Source of the DNA: a bacterium
Lineage (GTDB): Bacteria; Bacteroidota; Bacteroidia; NS11-12g; UBA955
Length of the DNA stretch: 56,662 nucleotides
Direction of reading: 5' to 3'
NCBI GenBank assembly: GCA_029945665.1
Contig: JAQSCZ010000007.1
Span: 1-56,662 of the forward strand
Each line of letters begins with the position of its first letter. Positions within the stretch are counted from its first letter, which is position 1. The notes under the pieces are model-generated. The model did no database searches. It was given only the letters and a program-made list of their open reading frames with translations, and was not told where the DNA came from. Positions 51,889-53,965 of this stretch are shown here, piece after piece. Made by a program: the position numbers and the translations under genes.

Positions 51889-52083
51889 TTTTTGTCTGTT
51901 TTTTAATCCTTTAGACCCTGAAAAGAGTCATTTTTCTCATATTATCAACTTCATTTTTAGCAAATTAATACACATAATACACATAAATTAAATCAATCAA
52001 AAAAAAATGCTTTATTTGAAATTCTTATCCCAAAAAATATTTAAAAATCCTTACTTTTGCATTTCTTTTTAGTTTAATATTCA

Positions 52084-53193
52084 GTGGAAAATTTTATTGT
52101 ATCTGCCCGAAAATATCGCCCATCCATCTTTGATGATGTGGTAGGACAGAAGCATATAACAGACACCTTGCTGAATGAAATCAATAGCAACCACCTTGCC
52201 CAAGCCTTTTTATTTACTGGTCCAAGAGGCGTAGGCAAGACAACTTGTGCGAGAATTTTGGCGAAGGTAATTAATCAAAAAGACAACGATGGTCCCGACC
52301 AAGATTACGCCTTCAACATCTTTGAACTCGATGCCGCCAGCAACAACTCCGTTGATGATATCAGGCAATTGAATGAACAAGTTAGAATTCCACCGCAAGT
52401 TGGCACTTATAAAATCTATATTATAGATGAGGTGCACATGCTAAGTTCACAGGCTTTCAATGCTTTTCTAAAAACCCTTGAAGAACCTCCAAAATACGCC
52501 ATTTTTATACTTGCAACAACCGAGAAACACAAGGTTTTACCAACGATTTTATCGCGTTGTCAGATCTTTAATTTCAAGCGAATTCAAGTAAAAGACATGG
52601 TGAGCCATTTAAAAACCATTGCGGTTAAAGAAAATATTAAAGCAGAAGAAGAAGCCCTACACCTAATCGCAGAAAAGGCTGATGGGGGATTACGCGACGC
52701 CTTATCAATGTTTGACCAAATGGTTAGTTTTTGTAATGGAGATATTACCTATGCAAAAGTTGTAGACAATCTCAATTTACTGGACAAAGATTATTATTTC
52801 AAAGTAACCGACGCCATTCTAAATCAAAATGTAGGTGAAGTTTTAAACTATTTTGATTTGATTTTGGAAAAAGGATTTGATGGACAACTCTTTCTGAATG
52901 GATTGAATGAACATTTTAGAAATTTAATGGTATGCAAAGATTCCTCAACTGCTCATTTACTGGATGTTGGAGAATTGCATAAAACCAAATACAATGAACA
53001 AAGTAAAAATACCAATTTAACTTTCTTATTGAATGCACTGAACATCAATAATCAATTTGATTTGGAATATAAAAACAGCAGAAACCAACGCTTACACATA
53101 GAAATAGCGCTTCTAAAGCTATGTCACATCAAAAATATGTTGAATTCGGCTACTACTTTAGATGAATTAAAAAAAAAAGTGATGAGTATATAA
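52084..53193 (+). CDS. dnaX: DNA polymerase III gamma-like product (dnaX zero frame)
   Basis: 369 residues, starting with GTG at the family-conserved MENFIVSARKYRP. The AAA+ clamp-loader domain has P-loop TGPRGVGKTT (45-54), DAASNNSVDDIR, Walker B IIDEVHML (113-120) and ILATTEKHKVLP with SRC arginine-finger motif near 158. Domain III follows. The usual cysteine-rich zinc module is missing: between ILAKVIN and NIFELDAAS only about 14 residues without cysteines occur (64-77). The frame stops 15 bases beyond a ten-A run, leaving a gamma-sized protein; the tau-specific part follows in the -1 frame. A TACTTTTG -7 element lies at 52052-52059. Confidence 0.9.
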   Translation: MENFIVSARKYRPSIFDDVVGQKHITDTLLNEINSNHLAQAFLFTGPRGVGKTTCARILAKVINQKDNDGPDQDYAFNIFELDAASNNSVDDIRQLNEQVRIPPQVGTYKIYIIDEVHMLSSQAFNAFLKTLEEPPKYAIFILATTEKHKVLPTILSRCQIFNFKRIQVKDMVSHLKTIAVKENIKAEEEALHLIAEKADGGLRDALSMFDQMVSFCNGDITYAKVVDNLNLLDKDYYFKVTDAILNQNVGEVLNYFDLILEKGFDGQLFLNGLNEHFRNLMVCKDSSTAHLLDVGELHKTKYNEQSKNTNLTFLLNALNINNQFDLEYKNSRNQRLHIEIALLKLCHIKNMLNSATTLDELKKKVMSI

Positions 53194-53198
53194 CTCGT
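53167..53198 (+). other. Putative dnaX frameshift or slippage site
   Basis: Ten consecutive A (53169-53178) read as TTA-AAA-AAA-AAA in the zero frame. A 6-bp stem ATGAGT / ACTCGT (53182-53187, 53193-53198) with loop ATATA follows; the zero-frame TAA (53191-53193) lies in it. The first A-AAA-AAA heptamer leaves a 6-base spacer to the stem. Reading -1 joins gamma (365 codons) to a 209-residue tail. Confidence 0.7.
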
Positions 53199-53807
53199 AA
53201 AACTGAACTTAACCAACAAAATGCAGCGAACACCGCAACACCAGCGCCATTGGTTAAACCAATACCTTTAGCAGATTCTAACTTTAGTTTACCGAAGTTA
53301 CCTTTAAAACATAATCTGGGCAAACAGGCACCGCCGATTCAAATAGAAATAGCCGAAATCATAGAGGCTTCTGATGAAGCGGTTAAAATAAAATTGGAAT
53401 TTATAAAAGAGGAAGAATCTCTTTATTCTGATAGAACCAACGAACCTAAAGCTACAATTGAGTTAAACGATTTAAATTTAAAGGCAGCAATGTCTGCATT
53501 TGCTGCATCTTTATCACCCTCGACTGCAGCATTGGTAAAAATGTTTCAACCCAGGATTGATGTTTATGATATAAAAATTTCAATGCAAAAGGGCAATATC
53601 AATCTAATTGAACCGATTAAAATTGAATGGCAGCGTTTTTTAAGGGATCATTTTTCAAATCGACAATTAACTTTAGTGATAAGTGAGGATAATACCGTGA
53701 TTCAACAAACCAGGGCTTATACGCAGCGTGAGCAATTAGATGAGATTATCAAAGAAAACCCAATCGTTCTTGATCTGTTAAAAACGCTAAATCTCAAATT
53801 GAAATAA
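53178..53807 (+). CDS. dnaX: DnaX tau-specific C-terminal region (-1 frame)
   Basis: 209 codons of continuous reading follow the A-run in the -1 frame, without a stop, beginning SDEYITRKTELNQQN. After a Pro/Ala/Lys-rich linker comes a folded domain with AMSAFAASLSPS, LIEPIKIEWQRFL and the C-terminal ENPIVLDLLKTLNLKL, which resembles the C-terminal domain of Bacteroidota DnaX proteins. Joined to the upstream frame it gives a 574-residue tau, about the normal family length. An independent start at the TTG 53250 would leave out the linker and is less likely. Whether it is made by frameshifting, transcriptional slippage, or a sequencing error in the A-run cannot be decided here. Confidence 0.8.
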   Translation, partial: SDEYITRKTELNQQNAANTATPAPLVKPIPLADSNFSLPKLPLKHNLGKQAPPIQIEIAEIIEASDEAVKIKLEFIKEEESLYSDRTNEPKATIELNDLNLKAAMSAFAASLSPSTAALVKMFQPRIDVYDIKISMQKGNINLIEPIKIEWQRFLRDHFSNRQLTLVISEDNTVIQQTRAYTQREQLDEIIKENPIVLDLLKTLNLKLK

Positions 53808-53965
53808 TCCATTTTTTTAGGTTAATGTCATTGTGTTAGGTTTAGTTCCTTACAAGGATTAAATATTCATTTAAAGATTTATATATCAAAAACTTAAAAA
53901 CAAAAACGGCTGATGCTTTTTTTTAATTTAAAGTTTATTTATATTCGTAAATTAAATTGTGAATA

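Follow-up and report, generated by a model that had tools for sequence, protein, structure and literature searches.

The window, i.e. the whole stretch of 56,662 nucleotides that was analysed, carries a dnaX gene whose coding sequence is split between two frames at a run of ten A's. The split is a real, conserved arrangement, and comparison of sequences suggests that the run is most probably a programmed recoding site at which slippage of RNA polymerase would give both gamma and tau. The features of the gene are the following.

52084..53193, + strand: dnaX zero frame, coding for gamma of 369 aa (GTG start from the mechanical listing)
53169..53178, + strand: slippery run of ten A's (A10), in codons ..A AAA AAA AAA G.., identical in 15/15 strong dnaX matches from the genus
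53179..53185, + strand: GTGATGA adjoining the run, the same in 15/15 genus loci and containing the +1-frame TGA (53180-53182)
53191..53193, + strand: zero-frame stop TAA, end of gamma
53178..53807, + strand: tau-specific tail in the -1 frame, 209 codons and a stop (open 53178-53804, stop 53805-53807)
53182..53198, + strand: weak hairpin around the gamma stop, without counterpart across the genus and probably incidental

The original prediction described a zero frame ending just after the ten A's as a 369-aa product made of the clamp-loader ATPase and domain III, and the coordinates as well as Pfam and NCBIfam agreed with it. The product matched Pfam families DNA_pol3_delta2, DNAX_ATPase_lid and DNA_pol3_gamma3 (the last at residues 222-360) and NCBIfam TIGR02397 (E 2.1e-119). 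It carries the AAA+ clamp-loader ATPase and its lid, followed by domain III to residue 360, and its top PDB matches were the E. coli gamma and tau chains. Past the run, the zero frame stops at +12 nt, the +1 frame stops at +1 nt and the -1 frame is open for 626 nt. The predicted opening of 209 codons from the run was confirmed (53178-53804), and arithmetic bore out that one A added to the run gives a tau of 574 aa (365 + 209). The gene has a run of nine A's or more at the gamma/tau boundary, namely A10, and its frames are laid out as in the Thermus type, with one short and one long product from unslipped and slipped messages. The window's genome contains 46 runs of exactly ten A's. Thirty of these loci were inspected, representing 29 distinct runs (one was read twice), and dnaX alone was flanked on each side by over 150 open codons in frames that differ (363 ahead of the run, 212 past it). 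For the next-best A10 (L174, C37:22897-22908) the corresponding figures were 102 and 70, again with a change of frame.

The tau tail was likewise said to be typical of Bacteroidota DnaX, which is supported by a C-terminal match to NCBIfam PRK14971 (tail residues 60-208 against positions 459-613 of 614, E 3.7e-6); this match lies far below the whole-protein cut-off, as expected of half a protein. No significant Pfam match was found for the tail, and a PDB sequence search with the tail profile returned four matches, none of them convincing (best E 0.076). AlphaFold2 applied to 18 aligned tails predicted a confident domain at about residues 95-172 (mean pLDDT 77, pTM 0.46). Comparison with the E. 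coli tau C-terminal domain (2aya) gave a weak Foldseek match (E 0.13), and this domain was absent from the best 50 VIA-align matches of the predicted fold. VIA-align placed first a chain of 82 residues from the SirA-DnaA domain I complex (Z 9.8 over 76 residues, rmsd 2.4); from its length, this chain is probably the DnaA domain. The DnaA N-terminal domain 2e0g (Z 6.7), DciA entries (Z 7.4 and 7.0) and many ribosomal proteins (about 7) were also retrieved; as so many ribosomal proteins reach this score, the predicted fold is a common arrangement.

Conservation was examined at the level of the genus, where dnaX matched strongly in 15 of 17 genomes; the two others (G004 and G005) matched weakly (best E 1e-11 and 6e-10) and had no dnaX row. 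All 15 loci displayed exactly A10 followed by GTGATGA, the gamma stop 12 nt past the run and the +1-frame TGA one base past it. The -1 frame, i.e. that of tau, was open for 605-629 nt in 14 of them, so that tau is reachable solely through a -1 transition at the conserved poly-A (split in 15/15, open tau frame in 14/15). In the remaining genus member, L008, the tau frame is interrupted by a stop after 26 nt, either real or an assembly error. Among the 14 tau tails without L008, pN was below pS in 91/91 pairs, and synonymous differences in the tau frame amounted to 0.56-0.97 per site in the 11 pairs listed. The tau frame is under purifying selection and, since silent sites change freely in the genus while the run stays constant, the run is held fixed. 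A search of related genomes for a conserved A-run with the same split, which the original prediction had proposed, thus succeeded in all 15 strong genus matches. The opposite outcome, intact relatives with an unconserved run, did not emerge: intact-frame (tau) genera of the window's family keep the run at the same place, as do most intact-frame relatives, L112 being a family member with an intact frame and no run. Programmed recoding at the dnaX run, as originally proposed for gamma and tau, is supported at the sequence level by the genus-wide split and by the run in these relatives.

These observations bear on three other explanations. The original prediction named as its main rival a one-base sequencing or assembly error in the homopolymer, dnaX being in truth one intact ORF. 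Homopolymers are generally error-prone and the window's assembly consists of 126 contigs, yet the identical A10 and split recurred in 15/15 strong genus matches, and gamma-default A10 runs also occurred on contigs of 3.5-5.6 Mb from other genera (L209, L226, L231 and L239). Conservation of the split in the genus rules such an error out, and we accord it practically no probability. It is also very improbable that the run is a phase-variable switch working by DNA slippage, or that the gene is decaying. Homopolymers do mutate fast, and two loci (L196 and L068) carry an A9, one A short of similar sequences with A10; against this, the genus shows no length other than 10, the phylum shows it more often than any other, and purifying selection acts on the tau frame. 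Independent translation of the tau tail by reinitiation past the gamma stop would fit the overlap of the two ORFs and the length of the tail frame. Yet 64 of 91 gamma-default loci had no ATG or GTG within the first 40 codons of the tau frame past the run (TTG was left out of this count, and the window has one at 53250), the positions of ATG or GTG were scattered in the remaining 27, and a lone tail would not join the clamp loader. In view of the lack of a conserved ATG or GTG, reinitiation was rejected as highly unlikely.

The survey was extended to 261 dnaX loci, composed of 62 from the window's family, 79 from named Bacteroidota, 104 from the same class and 16 from other classes. In the family, 64 of 70 genomes matched at E<=1e-60, and 62 were used since the matches of G017 and G020 end before the site; 79 of 80 named loci were retained, L031 being the same contig as L010. 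From 392 phylum genomes, dnaX was taken from all 104 of the same class besides the window's and from 16 of 287 others, these 16 coming from the best-scoring rows and therefore not being representative. The run chosen in each locus was the longest within about 200 nt of the domain III anchor, a procedure with a mild selection effect for which runs elsewhere served as control. A run of A9 to A13 was found near the domain III end in 237 of the 261 loci, against 10 runs of at least A9 in the rest of the same genes (466,532 nt). Length 10 was the most frequent in every codon phase (20/33 in phase 0, 84/96 in phase 1 and 85/108 in phase 2). By a rough estimate, with Lys retained and codons drawn by gene usage, three consecutive AAA would be expected in 98 of the 237 loci.

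The 24 loci counted without a run include L145, whose contig ends before the site, and L105, L279 and L290, which have A7. Two more of them, L078 and L303, display A10 and A9, respectively, about 290 nt past the domain III anchor, i.e. beyond the 200-nt search; these runs sit in the tau part and may represent a shifted slippage site. Four genomes of family f12 (L262, L264, L267 and L280) and several named loci, L091 and L109 among them, have no A-run near the domain III end and a long zero frame, and the device was apparently lost or never present in these lineages.

The 141 loci with tau in frame displayed an excess of stops just past the run in both off-frames. A -1-frame stop within 6 nt occurred in 112 of them, against 30.8 expected from the same genes, and a +1-frame stop within 15 nt in 104, against 47.3; the excess was weaker for the +1 frame within 6 nt (46, against 26.0 expected). 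The counts were repeated on 93 representatives sharing less than 80% identity, 54 of them with tau in frame, and compared with 20,000 simulations. Both the -1 stops within 6 nt (39/54, 11.3 expected) and the +1 stops within 15 nt (40/54, 18.1 expected) exceeded every simulation, whereas the +1 stops within 6 nt (19/54, 9.9 expected) did not exceed the highest of them. Both off-frames thus terminate soon, as is described for Thermus (PMC5009743).

The original prediction admitted either slippage or frameshifting; the recoding site itself stood, and the choice between the two leans to transcriptional slippage on comparative evidence. A -1 programmed ribosomal frameshift on A_AAA_AAA would make tau from the A10 message much as in E. 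coli, with default and shifted products exchanged. It is possible for the window and would explain the window itself; as an account of the site we hold it to be unlikely. The heptamer A_AAA_AAA is in frame within the run, the direction is -1 in 91 of the 95 gamma-default loci, one tRNA-Lys(UUU) was seen and downstream folding is slightly stronger. On the other hand, length 10 predominates in all codon phases although, by arithmetic, 9, 8 or 7 A's would do, and none of the picked runs was an A8 (the three A7 were counted as having no run). Moreover, some genes shift in the +1 direction, +1-frame stops are also in excess within 15 nt, no hairpin is common to the genus and RF00382 gave no match. 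The direction is telling since a -1 shift cannot yield tau in L207, L208 and L039, all outside the window's family, which points to slippage; mixed shift direction is used as a criterion of slippage in PMC3711429. L207 and L208 belong to two species of one genus of the same class (1746/2311 nt identical in an ungapped comparison). In both, a zero-frame TAG adjoins the A10 and the +1 frame codes for tau, a direction opposite to the window's. These +1 cases are to be read with the caveats that L039 is a single MAG and that L068 (A9) may be a sequencing error.

Signals that would accompany ribosomal frameshifting were searched for in the window. Its run reads A_AAA_AAA_AAA_G, and an in-frame A_AAA_AAG slippery site was absent; in E. 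coli, A_AAA_AAA was reported to be less shift-prone than A_AAA_AAG (PMC5009743). RF00382, which covers sequence and stem-loop, had no match at E<=1 in 52000-53900, while E. coli dnaX as positive control reached 96.8 bits at the gathering threshold. A hairpin had been predicted to hold the zero-frame stop. It was present in the window's own fold (stem 53182-53187/53193-53198; the 60 nt past the run fold at -8.0 kcal/mol) but absent, as judged by eye, as a common feature of the 15 genus folds. Minimum-energy folds of 34 loci, those 15 included, likewise displayed no common hairpin by eye, and a hairpin stimulator was rejected; strong hairpins past the run were seen in L002 and L003. The 60 nt past the run folded with a mean z of -0.55 against -0.22 in controls (237 vs 474 windows, p 0.003 uncorrected for relatedness). 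The E. coli dnaX site gave a z of -0.05 to -0.81 in the same test, which has, as a consequence, little power. The loci of 30 of the 32 tRNA matches included one tRNA-Lys, with anticodon TTT, as in E. coli, compared with two tRNA-Lys in Thermus, the slippage case (PMC5009743). The number of tRNA-Lys hence lends no support to slippage and was dropped as a discriminator.

Transcriptional slippage is favoured, then, by the prevalence of length 10 in every phase, by the occurrence of both directions and by the early stops in both off-frames. RNA polymerase, to which we attribute the slip by inference, would slip on the ten A's and produce transcripts of mixed run length. Unslipped A10 transcripts would be translated into gamma, the 369-aa clamp-loader ATPase, and transcripts one A shorter, meeting the TGA at once, would also give gamma. 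Those one A longer (generally +1 modulo 3) would give the 574-aa tau; if DnaX of other bacteria is a guide, its tail should connect polymerase with helicase. As in the analogous dnaX of Thermus thermophilus, gamma and tau would be made in comparable amounts.

The default product varied among the 237 loci with a run: tau was in frame in 141, in the -1 frame in 91 and in the +1 frame in four, with one other case. Among the 62 loci of the window's family, gamma is the default in 28 and tau is in frame in 31; L008 is the other case, and L112 and L145 count as lacking a run. Judging from the five named Flavobacterium loci (L064, L065, L066, L068 and L072), Flavobacterium johnsoniae dnaX would also have gamma as its default. 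One of the tau-in-frame members of this family, L118, has a stop 216 nt past the run, either real or an assembly error. On one quick FastTree tree of 259 loci, with branch supports not considered, the parsimony minimum was at least 21 changes between gamma and tau default, at least two of them in the window's family; the tree does not include L157, which was too short, or L208, which did not differ from L207 in the stretch compared, and loci without a run and L008 were left out of the count. Run plus spacer modulo 3 matched the class in 51/51 flavobacterial loci (31 gamma, 17 tau and 3 tau in +1), an agreement that follows by arithmetic, since the landmark past the run that the 51 loci have in common lies in the tau frame. 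It places the one- or two-base differences in the run, in the next 9-13 nt or just before the run. L196 and L068, the A9 loci mentioned above, also differ in default frame from similar sequences and are run-length variants or sequencing errors.

These changes may reflect a conserved slippery A-run in Bacteroidota beside a tail frame that is nearly free, a proposal for which we see about equal chances of being right or wrong. Slippage would supply gamma and tau at comparable levels from either default, so that indels of one base, in the run or in the short spacer past it, would repeatedly flip the default (at least 21 times on the tree) and leave the gamma/tau supply unchanged. If so, dnaX would be a rare natural example of near-neutral reading-frame drift in an essential gene. 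Read as a recoding site, the seemingly broken replication gene becomes a conserved device, and dnaX genes annotated as truncated or intact in much of Bacteroidota may hide the production of both products. The many natural pairs with the same run and opposite default frame offer material on the gamma:tau ratio and on the role of gamma in fitness. The importance of gamma for fitness has long been disputed in E. coli (PMC5009743).

The two-ORF A10 dnaX and the reversal of roles are already known from PMC3711429 and PMC5009743. Antonov et al. (2013) listed 17 dnaX genes of the two-ORF kind in 12 genera, among them nine with ten A's, and proposed transcriptional realignment (PMC3711429). Atkins et al. 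(2016) pointed out that the arrangement also exists in reverse and that a single nucleotide can exchange the roles (PMC5009743). Our literature search found no Bacteroidota account besides these two and PMC1088944, the PMC3711429 supplement, with its genera, lying outside its coverage. As far as this search reaches, what is new is the breadth of the arrangement in Bacteroidota and its repeated toggling. The GeneTack dnaX cluster resembles the window in its two adjacent ORFs, -1 transition and poly-A; its 17 genes come, in the part of PMC3711429 seen, with no expression test of dnaX, and compared with them the present survey is phylum-wide and includes genes that have tau in frame or in +1 at the same run.

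E. coli dnaX (RF00382) is similar in that one gene with slippery Lys codons gives gamma and tau, both products being predictions in the window. It differs by its ribosomal -1 shift on A_AAA_AAG with a stem-loop, an element of which no counterpart was found in the window's dnaX. A further parallel is Thermus thermophilus dnaX, for which slippage was reportedly described by Larsen et al. in 2000. According to Baranov et al. 2005 (PMC1088944) and PMC5009743, this gene is subject to A-run slippage, with stops close in both off-frames. The likeness extends to the genes surveyed here, where slippage is inferred; the Thermus run has nine A's with tau in frame, whereas that of the window has ten with gamma in frame.
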